13,714 nt of DNA from an uncultured Gemmatimonadota bacterium. GTDB lineage: Bacteria > Gemmatimonadota > Gemmatimonadetes > Gemmatimonadales > Gemmatimonadaceae. The DNA lies in the NCBI GenBank assembly GCA_946478895.1, contig CAMLDY010000061.1, positions 1 through 13,714 of the forward strand, read 5' to 3'. The notes beneath the pieces are model-generated. The model was not told the origin of the DNA and did no database searches. It was given only the letters and a program-made list of their open reading frames with translations. The position numbers and the translations under genes were made by a program. Shown here one piece after another: positions 1 through 13,714 of this stretch. Numbering within the stretch: the stretch's first letter is position 1; each line of letters starts with the position of its first letter.

Positions 1-896
1 GATTGGCGCGCTATGTACTGCGCCTCGATCTCCGGAGATGACGAGAACGCGCCACGCACCGAGCCGGACGGCCAGCCGCCTTCGACCACCATCACCGGCA
101 ATGCGCGCTGACCCTTAATCCGCGAGTAGTAGTCGAGCGGGATGTCGGCCGGGGTTTTGAAACCGCCCAGATAAGGGTACGACGACAGGCCGATCAGGTT
201 CATGAACGGGAAATCGTGCAGATCCTGCGCGATACCGACGAATAGTGTCTGCTTGCCGAGCTTTCCCCACGCGGTTTCAACCTGCACGCTGACGTACAGC
301 GGAAGCGCGGACGCCGAATGCGTGCGACGCACATCGGCCGCCGCGTCGTTGGTCATCCGAACAACGGCCTCGTAGACCGGGCGCGGCGCAATCGCGCGCA
401 CAAGGTTGGTCTCTGCCGCGAGTCCGAGATAGTCAGGGTGCAGCATCTCGACCAGAGTGCCGACGTAGTCGCGATACAGGCGTTGCACCGCCGGCTCGGT
501 AATGCTGCGATGCGCCGCGACCAATGCCGCCGCTTCGCTCTCGCGTGCCAGGCCGTTGGTCACATCGATCGTCACCACGAGCTTGAGATGCTTCGACCGA
601 TAGTAGTGCTCGAGGTCGACGCCATCCTTTCGCAACGCTTCCGCTGCAGATCCGCCGCCCAACAACTGCGCCCATGGAACGTCGAGGTGCATGATCGCGG
701 CATCCGCACGCTTGCTCCAGATGTCCAGCGACTTGAGAGCAATGGCGATGTCCGGTTTCGGCGGTACAACCGAGAATCCCATGAAGTACGAGCGTGTTCC
801 GGTGGCCACGACATCCGGCTCCGCGGCAGGCCGGGCACAGGAGATCATTACGGCGCATGCAACGGTCGCGAGTAGGAGCTTGCGGCGGGATCTCAA
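1..896 (-). CDS. Glycoside-hydrolase-like TIM-barrel lipoprotein (C-terminus beyond window)
   Basis: Partial gene; 298 codons are visible and the 3' end lies off the left edge. I start it at a TTG (896-894) because that gives a complete lipoprotein signal: RSRRK, a hydrophobic run, then M-I-S-C20 as the lipobox. The first internal ATG would leave no usable signal. The mature part looks like a clan-A-type (beta/alpha)8 barrel. It opens with a strand-like MGFSVVPP, has a possible acid/base Glu in GLAAETN (E162) and a possible nucleophile Glu in VVEGGWPSG (E272), which recalls the GH53/GH17 'E-x-G-W/Y-P' strand. These catalytic roles and any carbohydrate substrate are inferred; the exact family is not recognised. 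The TTG overlaps the TGA of the upstream SBP-permease gene (TTGA), so the two are probably translationally coupled. The coupling to a small-solute transporter is unexpected. No strong Shine-Dalgarno is seen. Confidence 0.72.
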   Translation of the reverse strand, partial: MRSRRKLLLATVACAVMISCARPAAEPDVVATGTRSYFMGFSVVPPKPDIAIALKSLDIWSKRADAAIMHLDVPWAQLLGGGSAAEALRKDGVDLEHYYRSKHLKLVVTIDVTNGLARESEAAALVAAHRSITEPAVQRLYRDYVGTLVEMLHPDYLGLAAETNLVRAIAPRPVYEAVVRMTNDAAADVRRTHSASALPLYVSVQVETAWGKLGKQTLFVGIAQDLHDFPFMNLIGLSSYPYLGGFKTPADIPLDYYSRIKGQRALPVMVVEGGWPSGSVRGAFSSSPEIEAQYIARQ

Positions 897-2482
897 GGCT
901 TCGTCCGTCGGTGCGCCGGTGCGAGCAGTCGTTCTACAAGAGCCAGGACGCCGTCGACCGCCAGCGCCAGAAGAGCGGCCGGCAGCGCGCCGGACAAAAT
1001 CATGCGCGTATCGGCCAGCGCGAGTCCCGCCACGATCGGCTCGCCAAGTCCGCCGGCGCCGATGAACGCAGCCAGCGTTGCCGCTCCGACCGTGATTACT
1101 GCCGCCGTTCGAATACCGGCCATGATCACCGGAGCCGCGAGTGGCAATCTGACCCAGACGAGACGCTGCCGCGCCGTGGTTCCCAACGCCTCCGCTGCAG
1201 CGACCGCATCCGGGTCGGCGTCACGCACTCCGGTGTAGGTCCCGCGCGCGATCGGATAAAGCGCGTACAGCCAGAGCGCCACCAGCGCCGGGATGACTCC
1301 AACGCCGAGCAGTGGAATCATGAACGCGAGCAGCGCGATGGATGGAATCGTCTCGAGGACGCCCAACGTTCCAATGGTGGGCTCGGCAATTCGCCGTGCT
1401 CGCTCCAGCGCCAGGCCCAGCGGCACCGCGACCAGCACCGCTGCCAACAACGCTACGGCGACGAGAAGTAGATGCCGCGCGGTCAGCGAGCCGATGCTGG
1501 CGCGACGGTCCCAGAGGTAACGCCAGAATCCCTGGCCGGCGGATGCAGTCGCGCCGGCTGCCCGCGGACTCGCGCTGATCAGTCCGAGCACGGCGAGCTC
1601 ACTTCGCGCAACCTCGGTGATGTCTTCCCGATCGACCTCTATGCGCTTGTTCAGAGAGCGCATGGTCAGCTCGTCGAGGCGTCCGCTCAACAACACGAGT
1701 GTCGCCACTGCTCCGGGCATTTCGCGCTCGAGCGTTCCGGACACAAGCGCGGCTGCTTCGTACGGCGGAAAGAAGTGGCGGTCGTCGTTCAGCGTCACGA
1801 GATCGTAGCGCGCCAGCAGACCGTCGGTCGAATAGCCATCGATGACGTCCACGGCGCCGGAAACGAGCGCCTGATATTTCACCGCCGGCGCGAGCGGTCT
1901 GACCGCCTTCGGCTTGATGCCATAGACCCGGGCGAGTCCAACGAGCCCATCGCTCCTGCCGATGAAATCCGCGGTAAATCCTGCCGTGAGATGCGGACTC
2001 TCCCGCGCCAGATCACTCAGGGTGCGCAGGTGATATCGGTCCGCGGTCGAGCGCGTAACTGCGATCGCGTAGGTGTTCTGAAATCCGAGTGGCGGAAGCC
2101 AGCGCGTGTCATAGAGCGCGGCGAATCTTCCCGCGACGTGCGCGAATACCGCTCGCGGGTCAGCGAGAACGGAGTCGGCCAGGGTGTCGTGAAGAATCGC
2201 GACGAGTCCGGTTCCGGTGTACTCGGGATACACGTCGATCGCGCCGCGCCTAAGAGCGCCGAACGCGATCTCAGTCGCGCCGAGTCCGCGTCGGCGATCA
2301 ACCGTGAAGCCGCGCGACTCCAGCAGCTGCGCGAACATTTCCGCCAGCACATACGATTCCCCGAACGGCTTCGACGCGACGACGACCGACCGGCGCTCCT
2401 GCGCTTGCGCCGCACCCGCCGAAAGCATCGCTATGAACAGAGCGATTCCGACGACGATGCGCAGCGGATGCATTCGGATCAC
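893..2482 (-). CDS. OpuBC/ProX-type substrate-binding protein fused to ABC permease
   Basis: A 529-residue fusion from the glycine betaine/choline/carnitine (or ergothioneine) uptake family. A signal peptide (about 1-27, AQA before Q28) leads a periplasmic OpuAC-like binding domain (about 30-305) with the family motif YPEYTGTGL at 85-93 and a later VDVIDGYSTDG strand. From about 320 there is a BPD_transp_1 permease with about five membrane segments and an EAA loop (AAAEALG, then a conserved L-P) in a predicted cytoplasmic loop. The order, binding domain first and permease second, is the reverse of the commoner permease-SBP fusions such as EgtU and OpuABC-type proteins. The topology still works: the binding domain is outside and the first permease helix runs inward. 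The start is GTG at 2482, overlapping the ATPase TGA (GTGA); an ATG three codons later is an alternative. The solute cannot be assigned from sequence alone. Confidence 0.9.
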   Translation of the reverse strand: MIRMHPLRIVVGIALFIAMLSAGAAQAQERRSVVVASKPFGESYVLAEMFAQLLESRGFTVDRRRGLGATEIAFGALRRGAIDVYPEYTGTGLVAILHDTLADSVLADPRAVFAHVAGRFAALYDTRWLPPLGFQNTYAIAVTRSTADRYHLRTLSDLARESPHLTAGFTADFIGRSDGLVGLARVYGIKPKAVRPLAPAVKYQALVSGAVDVIDGYSTDGLLARYDLVTLNDDRHFFPPYEAAALVSGTLEREMPGAVATLVLLSGRLDELTMRSLNKRIEVDREDITEVARSELAVLGLISASPRAAGATASAGQGFWRYLWDRRASIGSLTARHLLLVAVALLAAVLVAVPLGLALERARRIAEPTIGTLGVLETIPSIALLAFMIPLLGVGVIPALVALWLYALYPIARGTYTGVRDADPDAVAAAEALGTTARQRLVWVRLPLAAPVIMAGIRTAAVITVGAATLAAFIGAGGLGEPIVAGLALADTRMILSGALPAALLALAVDGVLALVERLLAPAHRRTKP

Positions 2483-3228
2483 GCGAGGAGTGGCTCGAGG
2501 CCCGCGCGGGCTTTCTCTATCAGCTGCGCCACGTAATCCGTCGCTGGACTTCGGACGAGTGCGCCCATGGGACCTCGCTGCTCGATCTTTCCGCTGCGCA
2601 TCACCACCACCTGGTCGCCGAGTCGAGCCGCTTCCGCGAGGTCGTGGGTGACGAGCAGCGTCGTCAGCACCAGCTCTGTCCGAAGGGCGGCGAAGGTTTC
2701 CTGTAGCTCGGCGCGTGAGATTGCGTCGAGCGCGCCGAAGGGCTCGTCGAGCAGAATCACACCGGGCCGCGCGGCGATGCTTCGCGCCAGCGCGACCCTC
2801 TGCCGCTGTCCGCCCGAGAGCTCGTGCGGAAAGCGCGATCCGAAATCGGCGACGGGCAGACCAACCAGATCGAGCGCGCGTCCGGCCGCATCGTTCGCGT
2901 CGCCCATCCCTCTCAGCACCGGCACCAACGCGACGTTACGCAGCACCCGCCAGTGCGGGAGCAGTCCTCCGTGCTGCTGCACATAGCCGATGCTCCGTCG
3001 CAGCTCGACCGGCGACTGCAGCCGGACATCCCGATCGCCGACGGTAATTTCTCCGGCGTCCGGCTCGACCAGGCGGTTGAAGCAGCGGAGCAGCGTGGTC
3101 TTGCCGGAGCCACTCTCGCCGACGATCGCGGTCGACTCGCCCGCCGCGACGTCGAGGCTGACCCCGTCCAGAGCTACGACATCGCCGAACCTGTGGGTGA
3201 CGTTGCGCGCAGAGAGCCCAATCGGCAT
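2479..3228 (-). CDS. ABC transporter ATP-binding protein, OpuCA/ProV type without CBS domains
   Basis: A 249-residue nucleotide-binding subunit that powers the fused SBP-permease encoded immediately downstream. All motifs are intact: Walker A GESGSGKT (37-44), Q-loop around Q84-Q85, signature LSGGQ (137-141), Walker B ILLDEP (158-163), D-loop GALD (165-168) and H-loop H195 in VTHD. The order and sequence match the osmoprotectant/choline ATPases (OpuBA, OpuCA, ProV). The protein ends at about 249 residues, so it lacks the C-terminal tandem CBS domains that sense ionic strength in OpuAA-type osmoregulated importers. That weakens a purely osmotic role and leaves other members such as ergothioneine or choline importers possible. 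The ATG at 3228 has no clear Shine-Dalgarno, but a short upstream ORF stops 3 nt before it, so re-initiation is plausible. Confidence 0.93.
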
Positions 3229-3231
3229 GCG

Positions 3232-3318
3232 TCAGGCCGGATCAGCCGCAGGCCGGCCGAGAAACACGCCGCACAGCAAGCAGACGGACATCTCGCGTTT
3301 CATCTTCGACAGATCCAT
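3232..3318 (-). CDS. Putative 28-aa leader ORF upstream of the ABC operon
   Basis: A short ORF starts at ATG 3318 with a GGAG Shine-Dalgarno at 3327-3324, 5 nt from the start, and ends at TGA 3234-3232. One codon (CGC) then separates it from the ATPase ATG, in the same frame. The peptide reads [10 protein letters not shown], then a hydrophobic centre with two cysteines (CLLC), then GRPAADPA. It has no recognised family. It could be a leader whose translation delivers ribosomes to the ATPase start, which lacks its own ribosome-binding site, or it could be chance. No transcription attenuator could be made out. Confidence 0.35.
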
Positions 3319-3343
3319 GACATCTCCACGAGGTCGCGCGATC

Positions 3344-3371
3344 TTGAATTCGCCGGGTTTCTCGATATCTG
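3344..3371 (+). promoter_or_regulatory. Possible promoter of the aldo/keto reductase gene
   Basis: TTGAAT (3344-3349) and TATCTG (3366-3371) are separated by 16 nt and lie about 30 nt upstream of the start. The -35 is good but the -10 matches the consensus at only three positions, so this is a weak prediction. The gene itself has an AGGA ribosome-binding site at 3394-3397, 5 nt before the ATG at 3403. Confidence 0.28.
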
Positions 3372-3402
3372 TTCGATAGATCCTCTAACGTCCAGGAACC
3401 GG

Positions 3403-4407
3403 ATGACTCCAGCCACCACGAAGATACGCCGCCTCGGCGCGCAGGGCCTGCAGACTTCCCCCATCGGCCTTGGCTGCATGGGAATGTCGGACTTCTATGG
3501 CCCCAGCAACGAGCAACAGTCGATCGCCACCATCCACCGCGCCATCGAGCTCGGCATCAACTTTCTCGATACAGCCGACATGTACGGTCCGCACACCAAT
3601 GAGGAGCTGGTCGGGCGCGCGATCAAGGGCAAACGCGACCAGGTGATCATCGCCACCAAGTTCGGCAACGTGCGCGATCCGAAGACCCGCGCTTTCCTCG
3701 GCGTCAACGGAAAACCCGACTACGTGAGGCAGGCGTGCGAGGCGTCGCTCAGGAGACTGGGAATCGACACGATCGATCTCTACTACCAGCATCGCGTCGA
3801 CAGAAACACGCCTATCGAGGATACGGTTGGAGCGATGGCGGATCTCGTGCGCGAGGGGAAGGTGCGCTACATCGGACTTTCGGAGGCGTCGGTCGCGACG
3901 ATTCGCCGCGCTCACAAGGTTCACCCCATCACAGCAGTACAGACCGAGTACTCGCTCTGGTCACGCGATCCCGAAGACGGATTGCTCGAGGCGCTCCGCG
4001 CGCTGGACATCGGCTTCGTCGCCTACAGTCCGCTCGGCCGCGGCTTTCTCACGGGCCAGATCAAGAGCGTCGACGACCTTGCCGACGACGATTTTCGTAA
4101 GCACCACCCGCGCTTCCAGGGCGAGAACTTCCAGCGGAATCTGGATCTCGTCGCGAAAGTCGAGGAGATCGCCGAAGAGCACAAATGCACACCCGCGCAG
4201 CTCGCACTCGCATGGCTCCTCGCCCAGGGCGACGACATCGTGCCGATTCCTGGTACGAGACATCCCGAGCGCGTTGAGGAGAACTGGCACGCGGTCGATA
4301 TCGTGCTGTCGGAGAATGATCTGCGTCGCATCGACGCTGCGGCCCCGAAAGGTGTCACCGCCGGCGATCGTTATCCCGAAGCCGGGATGCGAACCATCAA
4401 CGGCTAG
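3403..4407 (+). CDS. Aldo/keto reductase (AKR13-like)
   Basis: A 334-residue NADPH-dependent oxidoreductase of the aldo/keto reductase superfamily, expected to be a soluble single-domain TIM barrel that reduces aldehydes or ketones to alcohols. The catalytic tetrad is visible: D56, Y61 (in DTADMYG), K86 (in ATKFG) and H130 (in YYQHR). The N-terminal [13 protein letters not shown] and the C-terminal cofactor-binding [14 protein letters not shown] are typical of the branch containing plant and bacterial AKR13-type enzymes. The frame stays open far upstream of 3403, but those codons cover the opposite-strand ABC genes. The ATG at 3403 has an AGGA ribosome-binding site and gives the usual family length. 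The gene diverges from the ABC operon. Its TAG shares a CTAG tetranucleotide with the stop of the convergent DUF5916 gene. The physiological substrate is unknown. Confidence 0.93.
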
Positions 4408-6725
4408 AGCCGGAAGAGATAGCTGATCTTTCCGAAGAATCCGTCGCGGGTGCGCTGCAGATTCTGAAATCTGAATTCGCGCGGCTCCTCGAGCGTCGAG
4501 CCGTAACCCAGATACACGAGCGTGCCCGGAACCGGACGATAGCTGAATAGCCAGTCCGTCGAGAATTCGTTGGTGGTCTCGCCGGTGTCGAGCACGCCAT
4601 TGACCAGGATCCGAGTGCCGTTTCGGTCCTGCAGGGCCGACCGCGAGCGCGCCGCATACTGGCTGACAACCCGCACGAAGATCGGGCGACTCACCTGGTA
4701 CTCGACCTTGATGCGTGGAATGGTTTCGGTCGAAAAGCGAGATCCGTCGAGCCGGCGATCGATCGCCAATCGCGAGAACTGGAGCGTGCTTCGAAGCGCT
4801 GTCGTGGGACGCACTGCAATCGTCGCATCGATTCGCGAGCTCGAGCCGGGCGACGCCTCGCGGAAGATCGGGACCTGGCCTTTCGTCACGCTGGCGGTTC
4901 CAGTGAAGATCCGATAAGTGGGCGTCGTCAGGCTCAGTGATCCACCCCACTGATCCTTCTCGGGCGGCGGCACGACGAATGGCGCGGTAAACGCTCCCTC
5001 CGAGAGGGACAATCCCGAATACAGCGCCGGATCGAAGGCGAAGTACCCATGGGTCACCGCACCACCGAGCTGCCACCCGCCGCGCAGTGTCGCGCTCGGC
5101 GTAATCGACTCGCTGCTCTCCGCGAGACCGTGGCCGGCGCCGAGGTTGTTCCAGATGCGGTCCCAGCCAAAGAACGTGCTGATTGTCTGGAGCAGCGCAC
5201 CCTGCTTGCCGTAGAAGCTGAGTCGGTTGAAGGCGCGTCCTTCGATGATACCCGTGCGATTGACGAAGCCGGCGGCGGCGCGGAAGCCGGGGTCGAGCGA
5301 TCTCAACGTGTAATGAAATCCCCAGGCGCGTCCGGTTCGATCCCAATCGCCCTGCAGGATCGATCCGCGCAGGCGGTTGCGAAGACTGTCCGTCCATGAG
5401 CTCGCCGCCTGAAATTGCGCGAAGTACAGCTTCGAGTGGTAGAAACGGAAATCCCCCGACGCGACGCGCGAGAAGTTGTCGCCATCTTCGCGACTGGTGA
5501 GCGCCGCACCGAGCGTGTTCCCGGAACCGAAGTCGTAGCGCAGCCGCGAGACTCCGAACAACGGGGTGTTGCGGTTCTCCCACGAGTAGAGCTTGTCGTC
5601 AGCGACCACCATCGACGCGATGTTCATCCCGCCGAGCTTGCCGGTGAGCTTTACTCCGCCGATTGGCGCGACGATCTGCCGAGTGTAGATCAGCTGGTTG
5701 GGTGAGTCGAACAGCTCGAGTCCGTCAAGGAAGAACGGACGCTTCTCCGGATAGAACAGCGCGAACCGCTCGTTGAGCAGAACCTGCCCGACGTCGGCTT
5801 CGACCTGGGAGAAGTCGGGATTGATGGTGCCGTTGAGGGTGAGATTCTGCCTGATTCCCCAGCGTATGTCACCACCCAGCTCGCCCTTCTGTTGGTAGCC
5901 GCCATCACCGACTGTGGGCGAGCGGTCAGCGTGCGCGGTCAGCGTCGGCGTGGCTTCGAGAACGAGACCGCGTTTCAGATCGTGGAGTCCATCGAGGGTG
6001 CCCGATTGCGCGAGGAAGTTTGCGTTGGCCCGGACCGCCGGCGCCCAGGTGTCCTGAAATCCCGAGTGCTGAACGCGCCGCAGGATGTGCAGGCCCCAGC
6101 TCTGGACCCGCGCGTCCTGATAGCGCAGGCTCTTGAACGGAATTCGAACTTCGACTTCGTAACCGCCGTCGACGAGCCTGCCTTTGGACTCGAAGAAATA
6201 GTCCGGATTGAGATCGACGCTGCCCTCGAGCGGATTGATGGTGCGGAATCCGCCGCCGGTGGCCGACGGCCCCCCGGCGCCGCCCGAGAACTGCGCGCTT
6301 CGCGTCCCGTCCTGCTGAACGCCGTATGGGTTCACGCCGAAGAGAAACGCTATCTGTCGCGCGTTGTCGGTATCGAGAAGAATCTGGATCTGATCTTCGC
6401 TGTCGATGTTGTCGCGATTGGCGTGGGTTGCCCGCACGACGTTGCCGTGGATCTCACGCGCTCTGATGCCGAAGTAGATCGCGTCGGGCGCGTACCACAC
6501 AAGGACTTCGGTCGGCTCGTCGGCCGGTCTGCCGTCGACGGGCTGGTACTGCGAGAAACCCGTAAGCTTCGCCGCGCTTCGCCAGACCGGCTCATCGAGC
6601 TGTCCGTCGATCGTCGCGCTCGCATCGATGCGTGGCACCGGGACCTGGACGCGATGCGATCTGCCGTCGTAGATGAGCGTGGAATCCTGCAGCAACGCCA
6701 GCGCGAGCAATGCGTTAACGAGCAT
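4404..6725 (-). CDS. CBM9-like / DUF5916 outer-membrane protein
   Basis: A 773-residue envelope protein. The N-terminal third (about 30-225) is the carbohydrate-binding family 9-like beta-sandwich found in DUF5916 proteins, with the opening [12 protein letters not shown] and later [15 protein letters not shown]. The rest (about 235-773) is DUF5916, rich in amphipathic beta strands and aromatic residues, and ends YLFRL. It is likely an outer-membrane barrel. Such proteins are common in Bacteroidota and Gemmatimonadota and have no settled function; carbohydrate binding is a fold-based inference. The leader ([12 protein letters not shown], then QDS) is short and lacks a basic N-terminus. No in-frame upstream start repairs this, so the export signal is atypical or the start is imperfectly placed. 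There is no Shine-Dalgarno, but a TAAATT hexamer lies 7 nt before the ATG. The gene is divergent from the MgtC-like gene and convergent, with overlapping stops, with the reductase. Confidence 0.88.
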
Positions 6726-6732
6726 GCGCCAG

Positions 6733-6738
6733 AATTTA
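6733..6738 (-). promoter_or_regulatory. -10-like hexamer abutting the DUF5916 start (possible leaderless promoter)
   Basis: TAAATT on the minus strand ends 7 nt before the ATG at 6725. It fits the TAnnnT pattern seen before leaderless genes, and the gene has no Shine-Dalgarno. No convincing -35 was found. Confidence 0.35.
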
Positions 6739-6821
6739 CACGTCGCCGCCGTCGCGCATTAGTCTGGGCCGCCGCCCATCACCGAGCGGTGCGACCCGGC
6801 TTCGGCAGCGCGGGCAGCAGC

Positions 6822-6849
6822 TTGTGGAACGCTACGGTTGGCGTATAAC
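6822..6849 (+). promoter_or_regulatory. Sigma70-like promoter of the MgtC-family gene, probably leaderless
   Basis: TTGTGG (6822-6827) and TATAAC (6844-6849, five of six matches to TATAAT) are separated by 16 nt. The -10 ends 7 nt before the ATG at 6857, so transcription would begin at or just before the start codon. No Shine-Dalgarno precedes the ATG, which agrees with a leaderless mRNA. Confidence 0.5.
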
Positions 6850-6856
6850 GTCCCGC

Positions 6857-8122
6857 ATGGATCAGGACGTTCTCTGGCCTTACCTGCCGACTCTGTCGCG
6901 GCTCGCGCTTGCTGCGGCGATTGGCTTGTTCGTCGGAATCGAGCGCGAGCGTCGTCGCAAGGAAGCCGGCCTCCGCACCTTCGCTTTTTCGGCGATGATC
7001 GGCGCGGCCGGCGGGCTGCTGGGCGATCCCTACGCGCTCATTGCACTCGGACTCGTCGGCGTGTTGGTGATCCTGCTCAATATCGAGACAATCCGTACCG
7101 GCGAAGGCGCCGAGATCACCTCGTCGGCAGCGTTGATCGTCGTGACTTTCGCCGGAGTTCTCGCGGGGCGCGGGCACACCTTCGCGCCGGTGACTCTGGC
7201 TGTAACCACCGCCGCGCTTCTGGCCTGGAAGGAACCACTCGCCGGCTTCAGCCACGCGCTGACGGAGTCGGAGCTCAGGTCGGCTGTACTGCTGGCGATT
7301 CTCGCTTTCGTCGTCTTTCCGGTCTTGCCGCCCGGCACCGTCGACCCATTCGGTCTGTTCAATCCCAGCGAAGCGTGGGTGACCGTGATTCTCATTGGCG
7401 CGCTCGGTTTCGGGAACTACCTGCTATTCAAGATCTACGGCGCGAGGGCGGTGGAGTTGACCGGCTTTCTCGGCGGGCTGGTGAACAGCACCGTCACGGT
7501 TACCGAGTTGGCGAGCCGGACAAAGTCATCCGGCGCCGCGCTGTCCGATTTCACCTACCGCGGAATCATCCTCGCGACAGCCGCAATGTTGCTGCGGAAC
7601 GGGGTGATCCTGGGAATCCTCGCGCCCACGGCTCTTCTCTCCGCCGCCATTCCGCTGGGGCTCATGTTCCTCGGCGCGGCACTGGCAGCGACTTTCGGCC
7701 GTCACCGGACGACGACCCGCCACACCGACACCGACGCCCCACTCACCACCCTTCAGTCACCGTTCTCTCTGACCGCTGCCCTTCGTTTTGGATTCCTGTT
7801 TCTTCTCATTCAGGTCGCCGGCACTCTGGCCCAGAGAACGCTCGGCAATTCCGGATTTTATGGCGTGAGCTTGATCGGTGGTGTCGTCTCCAGCGCGAGC
7901 GCGGTAGCATCCTCCGCCAACCTTGCCGCCTCCGAAACTCTGTCGCCGCGGGTCGCCGCGATGGGTGCCGTTCTTGCGAGCGCCATGAGTGCTCTGGTGA
8001 GCTTGCCACTGGTCAAGCGCGTCGCGAACGAGAAATCCCTCACCAAACGAGTAGCGCTGGCGCTCGCCGTCATCGTTTTCCTCGGCGCCATTGGAGTCGT
8101 GGTCGAAACGATCCTGTACTAG
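6857..8122 (+). CDS. MgtC/SapB family membrane protein with DUF4010 domain
   Basis: A 421-residue polytopic inner-membrane protein. The N-terminal MgtC/SapB domain carries the family signature, a hydrophobic helix followed by GLFVGIERERRR (23-34). It continues through several helices including GAAGGLLGDPYALIALGLVG. The C-terminal half (about 190-415) matches DUF4010, with NSTVTVTELASR and the helical segment containing GGVVSSASAVASS. Proteins with this pairing are widespread but not functionally characterised; the short MgtC of pathogens, linked to magnesium stress and ATP-synthase control, is only a partial relative. A GTG at 6824 opens the same frame, but I chose the ATG at 6857 because the family normally starts just before the first helix and the best promoter lies between the two. 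The gene is convergent with the TonB receptor; the 87-base gap holds no good terminator. Confidence 0.88.
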   Translation: MDQDVLWPYLPTLSRLALAAAIGLFVGIERERRRKEAGLRTFAFSAMIGAAGGLLGDPYALIALGLVGVLVILLNIETIRTGEGAEITSSAALIVVTFAGVLAGRGHTFAPVTLAVTTAALLAWKEPLAGFSHALTESELRSAVLLAILAFVVFPVLPPGTVDPFGLFNPSEAWVTVILIGALGFGNYLLFKIYGARAVELTGFLGGLVNSTVTVTELASRTKSSGAALSDFTYRGIILATAAMLLRNGVILGILAPTALLSAAIPLGLMFLGAALAATFGRHRTTTRHTDTDAPLTTLQSPFSLTAALRFGFLFLLIQVAGTLAQRTLGNSGFYGVSLIGGVVSSASAVASSANLAASETLSPRVAAMGAVLASAMSALVSLPLVKRVANEKSLTKRVALALAVIVFLGAIGVVVETILY

Positions 8123-8209
8123 GAGGCGAGGCGTACGCCGCCGCGATCCGGAATCAGAAACATCTAACGCGAACGTTCAGCCGATGAAGGCGATTGGCAA
8201 GCACACCGG

Positions 8210-11023
8210 TCAGAAATCGTAAGCAATGCCAAGCTGCACCAGCCGGGGAAGGATTCCGAGCCCGGTGGTGAACTGACTGGACGTCGTCGTCCCCGCTCCT
8301 GTGCCCGATGTCACGAGCGACACCGCGGTACCGTCGGCATTGACGCTCAAAATGTCCTCGCCCGTCCGCTGCGCCATTTGCTGGATTGCCTGCTTGTTCA
8401 GGAGGTTCAGCCCCTGAAGCGTCAGTCGGAACTGACCGAAGCGGTAGCCCACACCGCCATTGAGCTCACCCCACCCGGGAATTGTCACCGTATTCGGACG
8501 GTTGGCAGGGCGGTCACCGCTGTAGCGATAGTCACCGAACAAGTCGAAGCTTGCACGTGTGTACGACGCGCCCAGATCGGCCATCACCGAAGCGATGTCG
8601 ATCAACTTGTTGCCTGAATAGTCGCGTACCTGTGGCCCACTGAGCGGACCGTTTCCGGGAACGAAGAAATCGTAGTGGAAGCGCGTGAATCGCGGATTCT
8701 GCAGGGTGCCGACCGCGCGCAGCTGCAGTCCGTCGGCCGGGCTCACTGCTCCCTCCATCTCGAGACCTGTGGTGCGTGTATCGGTGCTGATCGGAAGGAA
8801 CGCAAACCCGCCGTTGGCCTGACCGCGGTCCAGCGTGACGAGCATGTTCTTGCTCGTACCATAGAATCCGGTGAGTTGCAGCGACCAGCGCTGCGCCGAA
8901 GTCTTCACGCCAATTTCGCCTTGAACCGTAGTCTCGACCTCGCCTCGCTTGGTGTCGCCCGTAACCTGACTGCCATCGGTGGTCTGGAACGTCCACTGCT
9001 GCGGCGTCGGCATGCGAGTGCCGCGGCTCACGCGCCCGTACATGGCCGTGCGATCAGTCAGGCGGTAGTTGGCGCCGGCTGAAGCGCTCCACGTGCCGAA
9101 GGTATAATCCCACGTTCTATAGATCCCACTCCCAAACATCCCCGCCCGGGATTGCTCGGGAGTTGGGGTGAAGGCGGGATATCCTGCCGGCACTTCCTGG
9201 CCGACGACCTGGCCGTTCTCCACATCGCCCGGAACGACGGGGCGTTCGTTGCGTCCGTTGCTCATGTTGTGATCGAGCCGGGCGCCAAGATCGACGTTGA
9301 AGCGGTCTGACACGCGCCAGGTATCGCCGAGGTACAACGCCGCGATAGTAGTGCGGTTTGTCAGATTCCAGAAGCCGGCGTTGTATCCGGCGAAGCCGTC
9401 CGGAGGTGTGAGACCGATGAACGACCCGTCGGGTGCCGGCATCCCGACCTGGATCAGGCGTGGGTTGTCTGCCACCTCGACGAAAACCCCCTGTTGTGTG
9501 AGCTTGAGCCGCGTTTTGTAGGCGCTCAAGTAGAGTCCACCGGTAAGACCGTGCCGGCCAGTCTGGTGCGTGAGCTCAAGGTTTGCGATTCCATTGGTCA
9601 CTGGCTGGTCGACGAACGCCAATCCTTGCACGGTCATCAACCCGTTGCCATTGAGGTTTGCGACTTGTGCCGGGTCGGTGATCGTTTGTCCGCTGATCAC
9701 GTATCGCAGCTGGCGCGGTCCCGGTGGGCCGATAACGCTGATCGGAAACGGATCCGCAACATCTACCATGAGGTTGGTGAGATTTTGCGAGTGCAGGACC
9801 TTACCCCGGAATGTGAGCGACCAGCCTGGCGTGAGCTCGCGCAGCAGGTCCGTGCCCAGCATTTCGTAGCGAGTGATGTTGCCGTTCAGATCGTGACGTA
9901 CAGTGCCTCCCGGATTGAATGCGTCGGGCACAGTAAGGGTGAGCCGTTCACGTGCGAACATTGTTCCGGCGCCGATTTCCGGACCGCCGGAGATCGCTTC
10001 GGGATCCTTATAATTCTGGATCGGGATGCCAAGGTACCAGAGATCCCTCTCGTTCAGATACTTCCCGTAGAACTGGGCATGGCCCGACGCGAATTCACGC
10101 GTCACGTTAAGGCGTAGCTGTCCACCTTTGTTCGCGGGAAAACCGGGATCGCGCAGGCCGCGATCATAACGCCAATAACCTCCGGTGTTGAACCGCCACG
10201 CGGCGTAGAGCGGCCCCCCTATGTTTGCATCGAGCCGGCCCATCCCCTGGGCGCCGCCAGTGGTGCGCACGGTACCCGCCAGCGTCGGGCCGCCGGTCTT
10301 GCTGATCAGATTCACAATCCCGCCGGGCGTGCTGGAACCAAATACCGCGGCACTTCCGCCGCGCACTGCTTCGACTCTCGCGACCGTTTCATCCAGTCGC
10401 GCCATTGCATCGGGAAACGCGAATAGAAGACCGGGCGCCTCGAAGGCGGGAAGCCCGTCCTCCTGCAAGCTGACGTACCGGAACGAGCTCTGGTCCGACA
10501 CCGGAAGCCCGCGAACAGTCACATCGGCGCCGGTTTCTCCGGAGTTGCTCATTACCTGAAACCCGGGTACGCTCTTGAGCAGCTCCGCGGTGCCGCGCGG
10601 TGCCTGCTGCTCGACCTGTTCGTCGGTGAAGGTGGTGATCGCTGTGCTCGACTCGAGCTTCGAGGCAGCGTTGAAGGTGCCCGACACCACTACTGCGTCG
10701 AGAGAGAACGGATCTGCAGCGAGGCGAAAGGTGGCGCTCGCGCCTTCTGCAGTGGGCACGTTCACCTGCTGGACGGCCAGCCGATAGCCAATGTGTTGCG
10801 CGCGGACGGTGTGATTGCCGATTGGAACCCCCCGGAGCTCGAAGGTGCCGTCGGTGCGCGATTCGGCGACGAGCGTGCTGCCCACGACGATTATTCGGGC
10901 GCCCGCAAGCGGACGCCCAGTGTCGTCAAATACGTTACCGCGAATAGAACCGGACTGCGCGTCGAGCGTCGATGCAGCCGTGGACAACGCGAAGAACAGG
11001 GCAGCCGACAAACCAGGACGCAT
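8210..11023 (-). CDS. TonB-dependent receptor with N-terminal carboxypeptidase-regulatory-like domain
   Basis: A 937-residue outer-membrane gated channel energised by TonB-ExbBD. In order it has: a signal peptide (about 1-22, ending LDA before QSG); a CarboxypepD_reg-like beta-sandwich (about 26-104, SGSIRGNVFDDTGRPLAG); a SLDAVVVSG segment that may act as TonB box; a plug (about 120-235, with SVPGFQV, VTVRGLP, RVEAVRGGSAAVFG and TPGGIVNLIS); then a 22-strand-type barrel ending in the OMP signature AYDF. The plug resembles ferric-siderophore receptors, so iron-chelate uptake is possible, but the ligand is not determined. The frame remains open upstream to 11302, but those codons run antisense into the peroxidase gene. 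The ATG at 11023 has both a signal peptide and a GGGAGA ribosome-binding site at 11033-11028. The gene is divergent from the peroxidase gene. Confidence 0.94.
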   Translation of the reverse strand: MRPGLSAALFFALSTAASTLDAQSGSIRGNVFDDTGRPLAGARIIVVGSTLVAESRTDGTFELRGVPIGNHTVRAQHIGYRLAVQQVNVPTAEGASATFRLAADPFSLDAVVVSGTFNAASKLESSTAITTFTDEQVEQQAPRGTAELLKSVPGFQVMSNSGETGADVTVRGLPVSDQSSFRYVSLQEDGLPAFEAPGLLFAFPDAMARLDETVARVEAVRGGSAAVFGSSTPGGIVNLISKTGGPTLAGTVRTTGGAQGMGRLDANIGGPLYAAWRFNTGGYWRYDRGLRDPGFPANKGGQLRLNVTREFASGHAQFYGKYLNERDLWYLGIPIQNYKDPEAISGGPEIGAGTMFARERLTLTVPDAFNPGGTVRHDLNGNITRYEMLGTDLLRELTPGWSLTFRGKVLHSQNLTNLMVDVADPFPISVIGPPGPRQLRYVISGQTITDPAQVANLNGNGLMTVQGLAFVDQPVTNGIANLELTHQTGRHGLTGGLYLSAYKTRLKLTQQGVFVEVADNPRLIQVGMPAPDGSFIGLTPPDGFAGYNAGFWNLTNRTTIAALYLGDTWRVSDRFNVDLGARLDHNMSNGRNERPVVPGDVENGQVVGQEVPAGYPAFTPTPEQSRAGMFGSGIYRTWDYTFGTWSASAGANYRLTDRTAMYGRVSRGTRMPTPQQWTFQTTDGSQVTGDTKRGEVETTVQGEIGVKTSAQRWSLQLTGFYGTSKNMLVTLDRGQANGGFAFLPISTDTRTTGLEMEGAVSPADGLQLRAVGTLQNPRFTRFHYDFFVPGNGPLSGPQVRDYSGNKLIDIASVMADLGASYTRASFDLFGDYRYSGDRPANRPNTVTIPGWGELNGGVGYRFGQFRLTLQGLNLLNKQAIQQMAQRTGEDILSVNADGTAVSLVTSGTGAGTTTSSQFTTGLGILPRLVQLGIAYDF

Positions 11024-11027
11024 GTGG

Positions 11028-11033
11028 TCTCCC
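11028..11033 (-). promoter_or_regulatory. Ribosome-binding site fixing the TonB receptor start
   Basis: GGGAGA on the minus strand, 4 nt before the ATG at 11023. Together with the signal peptide it rules out the longer reading from 11302. Confidence 0.65.
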
Positions 11034-11095
11034 GGAATAGGTGGATCGCTTTTCGTGCGCAACCCGAGGTGGAGCGTGTTCGGGTGGCCTCGGAA

Positions 11096-11119
11096 GCGGC
11101 CCATAATTTTGGGTGCCGC
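11096..11119. repeat. Imperfect inverted repeat between TonB receptor and peroxidase genes
   Basis: GCGGCCCA and TGGGTGCCGC flank an AT-rich core (TAATTT). The arms GCGGC/GCCGC and CCA/TGG are complementary with a 2-nt offset. It sits about 75 nt upstream of the receptor start in a divergent promoter region, so an operator is possible, but no known regulator site is recognised. Confidence 0.25.
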
Positions 11120-11162
11120 CGCAAAGCTCGCCAGCCCGTTTCTGGCCGGCCGGCGCGCACCC

Positions 11163-11190
11163 TTGCGGAGTTCGGTGCGCAGGATACAGT
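11163..11190 (+). promoter_or_regulatory. Possible promoter of the selenoprotein-MFS operon
   Basis: TTGCGG (11163-11168) and TACAGT (11185-11190, four of six matches) with a 16-nt spacer, about 38 nt upstream of the ATG at 11229. Weak prediction. Confidence 0.28.
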
Positions 11191-11228
11191 TGTCCTCCCA
11201 AACCACCCGTTGCCCGCACAGAACTCTC

Positions 11229-11798
11229 ATGACGTGGATCGAAACAATTAGTCCGGCGCAAGCCGACGACTCGCTGGCGAAGGCGTACGCCATGCAGCGC
11301 ACTCTTTATCCCGCGATGTACGGCGAGCCCTCCGCGCCGCGCGACGGGCGAGTCTCCGAGAGCATCGTCGCCTCGCACAGCCTCATCCCTGACGCGCTGC
11401 ACCACGCCTTTGCTACCTTCGGCGCGCTCATGTCACCCGATCTGCCACTCGGCCGGCGACAGCACGAGATGATCGCGACAGTGGTGTCGGTGACGAATCG
11501 GTGCAGGTATTGAATGGACTCGCACGCAGAGTTTCTGCGTAAGGTTACGCTCGACGAAAAACTGGTTGAAGCGCTTCGCACCGACTGGCGGAGCGCACCG
11601 ATCACCGACGCCGAGCACGTGATGCTTGACTACGTGGTCCAGCTAACGGACGACGCGACGCGCATTTCGCGCGCAGATCACGAACGGCTCCATGCGGCAG
11701 GCTTCGACGATCGTGCGATTCTGCAGATCACGCTCATCGCCAGCTGGTTCAACTACATCAACCGCGTTGCCGACGCGCTCGGTGTGGGACGCGATTGA
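11229..11798 (+). CDS. AhpD-like peroxidase-related selenoprotein (in-frame TGA = selenocysteine 95)
   Basis: Read through one in-frame TGA (11511-11513), this is a 189-residue alkylhydroperoxidase/carboxymuconolactone-decarboxylase family protein, close to the usual length of the 'peroxidase-related enzyme' subfamily. The N-terminus MTWIETISP is typical of it. The redox motif reads C92-R-Y-U95-M-D-S-H99, with the TGA where the second cysteine belongs. E80, C92, position 95 and H99 have the same spacing as M. tuberculosis AhpD E118, C130, C133 and H137; in AhpD, C133 is the residue that attacks peroxide. Homology runs on across the TGA (SHAEFLRK before it fades, then the helix [22 protein letters not shown] typical of the family C-terminus). 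A SECIS-like hairpin lies just after the TGA. Expected role: cytoplasmic hydroperoxide reduction. The MFS gene begins on the stop codon. A TGC-to-TGA sequencing error or a decaying gene are the alternatives, made less likely by the hairpin and intact 3' half. The ATG at 11229 lacks a clear Shine-Dalgarno. Confidence 0.82.
11524..11540 (+). promoter_or_regulatory. Bacterial SECIS-like stem-loop
   Basis: ACGCAGA (11524-11530), loop GTT (11531-11533), TCTGCGT (11534-11540): a perfect 7-bp stem lying inside the coding sequence. The loop starts 17 nt after the TGA and its first base is G. Known bacterial SECIS elements have a short apical loop with a G in its first two positions, roughly 16-37 nt after the UGA, and are bound by SelB. 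Confidence 0.75.
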
Positions 11799-13099
11799 GT
11801 TTGCCGCGCGCGCAGAAACCCGACGGCATCCCATGGCGAACGTCGCTCCTGCTGGGCGGCGGCAGCTTCGTCATCGGAGCGGTCTCACCACTCTACGATA
11901 CATACGTCCCGCCGCTCCTCGAGCGGCATCTGAGCAGCAGCTCGATGATCGGCGCCGCGATGGGTATCGACAATGTGCTCGCGCTTTGCCTGGTCCCGAT
12001 TGTGGGCGTTGTCTCCGACGCAACCCGCACCCGCCTCGGTCGCCGCGTTCCATTCCTTCTCGCAGCGCTACCGTTAACCGCCTTTGCGCTGGCCGCTATC
12101 CCGTTCGCTGAGCGATTCGGCCTGCTCGCACTGCTTGCCGCGATGATCGCTGTCGACATCGCGCTGGCAATTTGGCGCGCACCGTTCCTCGCCCTCCTCG
12201 CCGAGCTGGTTCCTTCGCTGCAGCGACCGAAGACTGAGGGCGTCCTCGGCGTTGCCATGTGCCTTGGAGCGATGCTGGTGCTCGGTGGAGCGCGTGGCCT
12301 GGCCGAGCATCACCCGGACCTTCCCTTCGTCCTCGCTTCCGTCCTCGTCGCTGCCGTGTGGCTGATCTACGCGGTGGGTCTGCGAGAACCCGCACATGGA
12401 ACTCCGGAGCAAGACCAGGTAACGAGCTCTTCCGCGGCGATCGCGCCTTTTCGATCGCTGCGCGAATCGTTCACCGCCGGTGGGGGCAAGGCAATGCGCT
12501 TCTTCGGCGCTTGCCTGCTGTTCAACATGGCGTTCCAGTCCTTCTCGAGCTGGTTCACTCTCTACGGTTCAGAGCGATACCACACGACTGTGGCCAACGC
12601 TTCACTCGGCTTCATCGCCGTCGCGGTATCGACACTGATTGGATCGATGCCGGCGGGCTGGCTCGGCGCGCGCTATGGCAGGCGGCGGATGTCTCTGATT
12701 GGTTTCGGCGGCATGGCGGCCGCATGCATGGTGATGTATTTCGCGCCGACGCTCAGCGTTGCGGTCGGAATTCTTTTCCTGTTCGGGCTGTCATGGTCGC
12801 TTCCGGTCGCGAATCTGGCACCGATGGCCCTCGAGCTCAGAAGCTCGGCGCGCGCGGGATCACTCGCCGGTGCGTTTCTGCTCGTGCAGAGCGCCGCTGG
12901 ACTCTTGGGGCCGTCACTCGTCGGCGTGTGGTTCGACATGACCCGAACACGGCGGGGGTTGTTTGCCCTTCTTGCGATTTTCCTTGCCGGAGCGTTCGCG
13001 CTGCTCGGGACGTTGGCATCCGGTTTTGGCGAGGCGCGCAGCAGTGCACCCGTGCTGGACGCGGAGGGTCTCGCCGCATCAGTCGCCTCGGTGGCGTAA
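11795..13099 (+). CDS. Major facilitator superfamily transporter
   Basis: A 434-residue inner-membrane transporter with about 12 hydrophobic segments in two halves separated by a polar cytoplasmic loop near residue 205-235. The loop between helices 2 and 3 carries [11 protein letters not shown] (74-84), a form of MFS motif A that recalls sucrose and glycoside-pentoside-hexuronide transporters. The second-half counterpart is [14 protein letters not shown]. The substrate is not identifiable. The start is TTG at 11795, whose last two bases belong to the TGA stop of the selenoprotein gene (TTGA). A weak GGGA lies 5 nt upstream, and a second TTG follows two codons on. Translation is therefore probably coupled to the upstream gene. 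A hairpin lies directly over the stop codon and may end the operon. The C-terminus ([10 protein letters not shown] onward) is polar and probably cytoplasmic. Confidence 0.9.
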
Positions 13100-13125
13100 C
13101 GGTCGATGTGGTACGGACCGTTTCT
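13098..13125 (+). terminator. Possible intrinsic terminator after the MFS gene
   Basis: AACGGTC (13098-13104) and GACCGTT (13116-13122) form a perfect 7-bp stem with an 11-nt loop, followed by TCTCC. The left arm includes the last two bases of the TAA stop. The U tract is short, so strength is doubtful. In the other direction no U-rich tail follows. Confidence 0.4.
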
Positions 13126-13166
13126 CCAGGAGATACGGTGCCCCTGGTCGACCGCCCGCAAATTCG

Positions 13167-13385
13167 CTACGCAGATTTCCTGCGGCCGACGATTACCAGG
13201 CCGGCGCCAACCACGATGGCAATCACTCCGACGTAGGCTGGAACCAGTCCTTTCTCCTGTGCTGTCACCTTGAGCGGACCCACCTCTACTTCATTGCGGC
13301 TCTTGGTGTACGGAATTCCGCCCACCGCAACGATGTCGATACCGGCGAGAATGACGAGGATACCGATCCAGCCGAGTAGGCGCAT
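13167..13385 (-). CDS. Small two-helix membrane protein, DUF3185-like
   Basis: A 72-residue protein with two hydrophobic helices (about 4-24 and 50-68) around a polar centre, GGIPYTKSRNEVEVGPLKVTA in shortened reading: an IPYTK turn, then EVEVGPLKVTAQEK. It ends in the basic tail GRRKSA. The layout, with a K-x-x-x-x-x-V-GP-x-x-V/A-T-A centre between helices, resembles DUF3185 and related small inner-membrane proteins of unknown function. The reading frame continues upstream to 13568, but the ATG at 13385 has a strong AGGAGG ribosome-binding site and a clean N-terminal helix, while the upstream part is low-complexity and polar. The gene follows ettA on the same strand after 222 nt and converges with the MFS gene. 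Confidence 0.75.
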   Translation of the reverse strand: MRLLGWIGILVILAGIDIVAVGGIPYTKSRNEVEVGPLKVTAQEKGLVPAYVGVIAIVVGAGLVIVGRRKSA

Positions 13386-13389
13386 GTCT

Positions 13390-13395
13390 CCTCCT
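13390..13395 (-). promoter_or_regulatory. Strong ribosome-binding site deciding the small membrane protein start
   Basis: A full AGGAGG on the minus strand, 4 nt before the ATG at 13385. It is the best Shine-Dalgarno in the window and excludes the longer 133-codon reading. Confidence 0.75.
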
Positions 13396-13482
13396 GACAA
13401 GCTTCGTAGCCGTCGAGCTATCGACGCAGAAGATGCGCCTGGGGTCCTGCCCGCACTAGCACCAACCACGCTCCTAAACCTG

Positions 13483-13506
13483 GGGCTCCCTGGGGCTAGG
13501 GAGCCC
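13483..13506. repeat. GC-rich perfect hairpin between ettA and the small membrane protein gene
   Basis: GGGCTCCC (13483-13490) and GGGAGCCC (13499-13506) form an 8-bp stem with an 8-nt loop. The left side also holds a direct repeat, CCTGGGGCT at 13479-13487 and 13489-13497. It could end ettA transcription or sit in the 5' leader of the small gene. The only T-rich flank (TTCTCT) is on the plus-strand side, where no upstream gene needs it, so its role is open. The remainder of 13386-13607 shows no gene. Confidence 0.5.
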
Positions 13507-13607
13507 TTCTCTGACTGCCGTCTTATATGCCCACCGGCCGTCAACCCGGATTCCTCGAGATAAAGCAAAGCTTTCCGCGGCCAGATGACGGCGTCGGCTG
13601 GACACCG

Positions 13608-13714
13608 CTAAGCGCGAACTAGCTTCTTGTAGGCGATGCGATGCGGCTGGTCGGCATCCGCGCCCTTCCTTCGCTTGAGATCCTCGATGTAGCTCTGATA
13701 GTTCCCCTCGAACC
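13608..13714 (-). CDS. ettA: EttA, energy-dependent translational throttle ABC-F protein (C-terminal fragment)
   Basis: Only the last 34 residues and the TAG stop (13610-13608) are inside the window; the rest of the gene lies off the right edge. The visible tail, FEGNYQSYIEDLKRRKGAD followed by ADQPHRIAYKKLVRA, closely matches the conserved EttA end (W-F-EGN-(Y/F)-Q-x-Y-E-x-D-(K/R)-KRR, then P-x-RI-x-Y-(R/K)-(K/P)). EttA is a soluble ABC-F ATPase that binds the ribosomal E site and gates entry into elongation according to the ATP/ADP ratio. The ATPase domains are outside the window, so their integrity cannot be judged. Another ABC-F member is the main alternative. Confidence 0.85.
   Translation of the reverse strand, partial: FEGNYQSYIEDLKRRKGADADQPHRIAYKKLVRA

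Follow-up and report, generated by a model that had tools for sequence, protein, structure and literature searches.

The DNA analysed here (the window) is contig CAMLDY010000061.1, positions 1 to 13,714, from assembly GCA_946478895.1 of an uncultured Gemmatimonadaceae bacterium. At 11229..11798 on the forward strand it carries a gene which is very probably an AhpD-like (TIGR01926) selenoprotein gene, with the in-frame TGA at 11511..11513 (+) read as selenocysteine (Sec, U) at residue 95. We take this TGA as a Sec codon because it is conserved among relatives, because a hairpin of the selenocysteine insertion sequence (SECIS) type stands behind it, and because the TGA form of the gene is tied to the presence of tRNA-Sec and selB.

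Reading frame, family and predicted active site

Two open reading frames (ORFs), 11229..11513 and 11514..11798 (+), share one common frame. The ORF list and the translation agree with an earlier reading made from the letters only (the sequence-only reading) that a single TGA parts them; apart from TGA 11511..11513 the frame is open as far as the terminal TGA at 11796..11798. The second ORF encodes 94 amino acids, and the readthrough product, with TGA as U, has 189 residues and the motif C-R-Y-U. The joined protein scored 115.9 bits against TIGR01926 (“peroxidase-related”; cut-off 81.8), which matched with the earlier view that it is a full-length peroxidase-related member of the AhpD family, and 37.7 bits against Pfam CMD (cut-off 23). 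Among solved structures, those nearest to it in sequence and in fold are of “peroxidase-related” and AhpD-like proteins, and it has the AhpD-type fold with the Glu, CxxU and His site. Membership of NF041238 (57.7 bits against a cut-off of 175) and of TIGR00777, AhpD proper (21.3 against 191.95), was ruled out by score.

The spacing of E80, C92, U95 and H99 had been described as that of Mycobacterium tuberculosis AhpD; these positions stand, and Y94 can be added to them. E80 (codon 11466..11468, +), the predicted proton-relay glutamate, is invariant in both protein alignments, A1 and A2. C92 (11502..11504, +), the predicted resolving cysteine, is conserved in 19/20 (A1) and 22/24 (A2) rows, with Thr in the others. 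H99 (11523..11525, +), the predicted active-site histidine, is also invariant in A1 and A2; its codon is CAC in 49/49 different close Sec genes, and the last two bases start the hairpin stem. The in-frame UGA itself aligns with Cys of homologues. Among the other rows of A1 (n = 19) and A2 (n = 23), position 95 is Cys in 14 and 17, Trp in 4 and 5, and a gap or Leu in one each.

The TGA codon, the hairpin behind it and the selenocysteine machinery

The alignment set had 101 sequences (the window plus 100 loci, some of them the same place fetched twice), and 100 were aligned; the exception was L014, which matched the pattern by chance. The codon at the Sec site was TGA in 90, TGC in eight and TGT in two of the 100 aligned sequences, window included, that is, a Cys codon in 10. 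The sequence-only reading had proposed a check for varied stops in relatives: TAA or TAG was found in none of these 100. The 90 TGA sequences collapse to 74 different 48-mers. Scanning genome contigs with the degenerate pattern C-x-Y-TGA-x-D-(Ser/Thr-type codon)-H-x-E-F gave 28 stretches, 27 true homologues and the one chance match, L014. By record title the 27 belong to Gemmatimonadota (12), Acidobacteriota (10) and Latescibacterota (5); three loci titled Gemmatimonadetes (L008, L025, L027) cluster with Latescibacterota in our tree, so some record titles may be wrong. Protein search at E <= 1e-20 found a match in 108/298 Gemmatimonadota and 41/199 Acidobacteriota genomes, where the TGA form in unfetched rows was judged by the count of stops inside the match only. 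In distant AhpD-like subfamilies of Gemmatimonadota and Acidobacteriota (L053-L066, L084-L096, L107, L108) TGA was also present, and most of them had a SECIS-like hairpin with the same spacing and different letters.

The SECIS-type hairpin lies at 11524..11540 (+), with a 7-bp stem and a 3-nt loop, GUU; 17 nt lie between the TGA and the loop. It falls inside every limit of the bacterial SECIS model as given in section 5 of PMC13188914. The 19-nt core folds with -9.0 kcal/mol (z -4.89; 0/200 shuffles as good), and the 31-nt fold with -10.9 kcal/mol (z -2.74). The letters CACGCAGAGTTTCTGCGT behind the TGA are nearly fixed in close Sec forms. Three codons, GCA, TTT and CGT, hold 47, 48 and 47 of their 49 sites in the 49 different close Sec genes, and elsewhere in the same genes they are minor codons (0.08, 0.22 and 0.08). 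Pairing was kept in 485/518 cells of the 74 different Sec sequences versus 30/63 cells of nine different Cys sequences (eight of them distant). Sliding the stem by 1 to 4 lowers the Sec-form value to 22-62%. In distant Sec forms (34-43% identical) the stem is mostly still there, built from different letters, and in 20 of the 74 different Sec sequences the C-G of pair +16/+26 is replaced by G-C or G-U. Judged from these alignments, compensatory changes and the use of rare synonymous codons preserve the hairpin in Sec forms; Cys forms do not keep it. No Rfam match was found in 10900-12000 at E up to 1, and no tRNA gene was found within the window.

Genes for Sec insertion were searched in the 298 Gemmatimonadota genomes (tRNA-Sec at E <= 1e-10, selB at E <= 1e-65), and overall 214 had tRNA-Sec and 219 had selB. 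Among 101 genomes with the TGA form, 100 had one or both (91 tRNA-Sec, 94 selB, 85 both), while none of the seven Cys-only genomes had either; genomes without a family match had tRNA-Sec or selB in 132/190. Acidobacteriota (41 genomes) gave tRNA-Sec and/or selB in 40/40 TGA-form genomes and in 0/1 Cys-only. Among the 28 pattern-match genomes, selB was over its cut-off in 24, tRNA-Sec reached at least 65 bits in 23, and selA and selD were over their cut-offs in 25 and 26; G014, the genome of the chance match, had none of the four. The selD match carried one in-frame TGA in 13/26 genomes (G003, G009-G011, G013, G015, G017, G019-G022, G024, G026); Sec-containing SelD is already known (PMC2398784, in the part available).

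Several points weigh against the selenoprotein reading. The window hairpin by itself carries little weight: the window has 327 TGAs, and four of them, the Sec TGA included, have a 7-bp stem within the same limits, and the 53-nt fold is unremarkable (z -0.94; 34/200 shuffles as good). Pair +16/+26 is broken in 5/74 and the innermost pair +19/+23 in 16/74 Sec sequences. Two-sided pair changes fall mostly between subfamilies, so that the tally counts sequences and not events. The lower stem is poorly conserved (innermost pair in 12 of 47 different close sequences). Its extended form (GACUCG/CGGGUC) looked promising in some relatives and was poorly kept across the 47, and we therefore limit the claim to the upper hairpin. 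There are few Cys controls and most are distant, with just one close Cys form with DNA (62% identical), and the homologues in the seven Cys-only Gemmatimonadota genomes are just 32-38% identical to that of the window. In G182, a TGA-form genome, neither tRNA-Sec nor selB was detected. The machinery evidence comes from related genomes and not from the genome of the window itself; these genomes are non-independent points, and those assembled from metagenomes are incomplete.

Predicted function and alternative readings

If the TGA is read as Sec, SelB with Sec-tRNA-Sec would bind the hairpin at 11524..11540 and decode the UGA. The U95 selenolate would then attack peroxide, C92 would resolve it as a selenenyl-sulfide, and proton relay would fall to E80, Y94 and H99, as proposed for Pseudomonas aeruginosa PA0269 and M. 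tuberculosis AhpD. Under selenium shortage only a product of 94 residues would be made. The second Cys of CxxC (C133 in M. tuberculosis AhpD) is the one which we take to be peroxide-reactive. In the accessible text of PMC3141380 both Cys are named as responsible.

Fold and active site suggest peroxidase activity, and we consider it somewhat probable that peroxide is the main substrate. A reasonable share of doubt goes to another function, which is compatible with the selenoprotein reading: the protein may chiefly reduce disulfides or selenenyl-sulfides, act as an adaptor, or catalyse the reduction of some other substrate. TIGR01926 is named merely “peroxidase-related”, an amino-acid permease gene precedes the gene in 25 of 46 related loci, and the fold, as a further point against a peroxidase, is common to the Bmp8 debrominase. 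According to the available part of PMC3141380, the peroxidase activity of PA0269 is weak and AhpD is an adaptor for AhpC. On the other side, all five relay positions of PA0269 are present, with Sec in place of the second Cys.

Less can be said for UGA being read as tryptophan, or being generally suppressed, in this lineage. Of the homologues listed for the joined protein (n = 120), 45 match the motif with Cys at position 95, as had been expected of Cys-containing homologues, and 66 match it with Trp; the remaining nine are off-motif, three of them with Trp. At least 66 have Trp entered at the Sec site. In all 66 the next residues are I-E, I-D or I-T, the Sec-type context, while S or T comes next in 41 of the 45 Cys forms. 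A quick tree was built from 122 rows: 49 with Sec, 48 with Cys and, of the Trp-written ones, the first 25 to fit (support below 80 in 55/119 inner branches). It gathered 45/48 Cys rows into a single group, whose support of 91 was not starred, and scattered the 25 Trp-written rows among the Sec rows. From this placement and context, the Trp-written entries probably represent TGA translated by another code. The terminator of the gene is itself TGA, and TGA forms accompany tRNA-Sec and selB, so Trp reading is very improbable. Literature on such Trp misreading gave nothing of use among the matches listed. The sole close Cys form fetched (L083 / L105, Acidobacteriota, genome G332) has the motif T-R-Y-C, with Thr replacing the first Cys; it was without hairpin, and its genome was without tRNA-Sec or selB match.

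A nonsense mutation or sequencing error in a pseudogene is hardly credible either, though the window alone shows a plain interrupted frame. The TGA sits at the same codon in most of the aligned sequences, as given above, and the stretch behind it is conserved and codon-constrained. The N-terminal half gave 7999 scored matches, and 120/120 of those listed end two residues past the Cys aligned with C92, 119/120 as C-x-Y. Where named, they are called “hypothetical protein” or “alkylhydroperoxidase family enzyme”, mostly with 92-97 amino acids. One of these N-terminal halves, P0123, comes from another source, is 93% identical and ends at the same place.

Two separate proteins, with a stop at the TGA and a restart at the ATG that directly follows it in the window, would cut the active site between C92 and H99, and that codon in the 49 different close Sec genes is Ile in 39, GTG in four, ATG in three and CTG in three, which leaves this possibility with next to no credit.

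Neighbouring genes and known AhpD-like selenoproteins

Upstream of the selenoprotein gene in the window lies a divergent TonB-dependent receptor gene. Downstream, a major facilitator superfamily (MFS) transporter gene (PF07690; 11795..13099, +; predicted TTG start) overlaps its end by TTGA, and the two are possibly translationally coupled in the genome of the window. The sequence-only reading had spoken of an operon, which did not hold as a conserved unit: the MFS gene was rejected as conserved partner, since the linkage is not conserved in the loci examined. An MFS match at E <= 1e-60 was found in only 1/298 Gemmatimonadota genomes, and the 4.2 kb around it held no clear relative of the selenoprotein (best E 0.08). 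At 893-3228 (-) the window also encodes a betaine/choline-type ATP-binding cassette transporter, with an ATPase and a fused permease/substrate-binding protein, both under NCBIfam cut-offs. An aldo/keto reductase encoded in the window shares 99-100% identity with proteins assigned to a Gemmatimonadaceae bacterium.

The neighbours of 51 different close loci were surveyed, 46 of them with at least 900 nt upstream. In 23/46 by tblastn, the gene immediately upstream in the same orientation encodes an amino-acid permease; counting L015 and L022 by their ORF clusters raises this to 25/46. These loci come from three phyla (L001, L004-L006, L008, L015, L016, L022, L025, L027, L041, L044, L045, L047, L052, L067-L069, L071, L073, L076, L077, L080-L082); in L009 the permease gene lies downstream instead. 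None of the 24 distant loci had an amino-acid permease gene immediately upstream, and none stands beside the selenoprotein gene of the window. The only permease scanned, that of L071, scored 163.2 bits against PF13520, and its nearest NCBIfam model was TIGR00911, L-type amino acid transporter, at 186.2 bits (under the cut-off of 701.8). It is a speculative and rather unlikely idea that enzyme and L-type permease form a conserved selenium-dependent module in Gemmatimonadota, Acidobacteriota and Latescibacterota. Such a module would couple uptake of an amino acid, perhaps cystine, to a selenoperoxidase, as a bacterial counterpart of the animal pairing of cystine importer and GPX4, and the window would represent a side branch in which the permease has been lost or moved.

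The sequence-only reading took AhpD-like selenoproteins as known in principle. That was right and understated, since a TIGR01926 CxxU row, with one accession shown, stands in the part available of the 2026 catalogue PMC13188914. Earlier reports, as far as their text was accessible, gave 27 AhpD-like CxxU sequences (COG2128) in the Sargasso Sea survey of 2005, two AhpD-like selenoproteins (COG2128) in a 2006 paper, and 299 “AhpD-like 1” sequences in the Global Ocean Sampling (GOS) survey of 2008. The family is thus already catalogued, and the window gene is very likely a further example, in Gemmatimonadaceae. The word Gemmatimonad is absent from the 2005, 2008 and 2026 papers in the parts available, and the matches listed held no literature on an AhpD-like selenoprotein in Gemmatimonadota, in a search that mostly left subscription journals outside.

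In the sampled Gemmatimonadota and Acidobacteriota, TGA/Sec is the usual form of an enzyme whose family is so far known chiefly from marine surveys. Automatic annotation tends to overlook such Sec genes, and in databases many of them are shortened “hypothetical protein” entries or probably carry an incorrect residue. The 17-nt hairpin and the frequent permease neighbour are handles to find, re-annotate and test them.

In the parts available, the known AhpD-like selenoproteins of 2005, 2008 and 2026 share with the window gene the same COG or family model, the CxxU motif and a bacterial SECIS downstream of the UGA; those of 2005 and 2008 come from marine surveys, whereas the window gene is from a member of Gemmatimonadaceae. 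NF041238 (AhpD_rel_CFYUT) has a related AhpD-type domain and is named after CFYUT, but is a model of 357 positions under whose cut-off the window protein falls. The accessible text of PMC3141380 gives E36, C48, Y50, C51 and H55 as relay residues of PA0269, an AhpD-like protein of P. aeruginosa, and E118, C130, H132, C133 and H137 as those of M. tuberculosis AhpD. The spacing of E80, C92, Y94, U95 and H99 is that of PA0269, which has Cys for Sec and a shorter chain. M. tuberculosis AhpD has the same spacing, with His132 at the Tyr of the window protein and Cys at its Sec.
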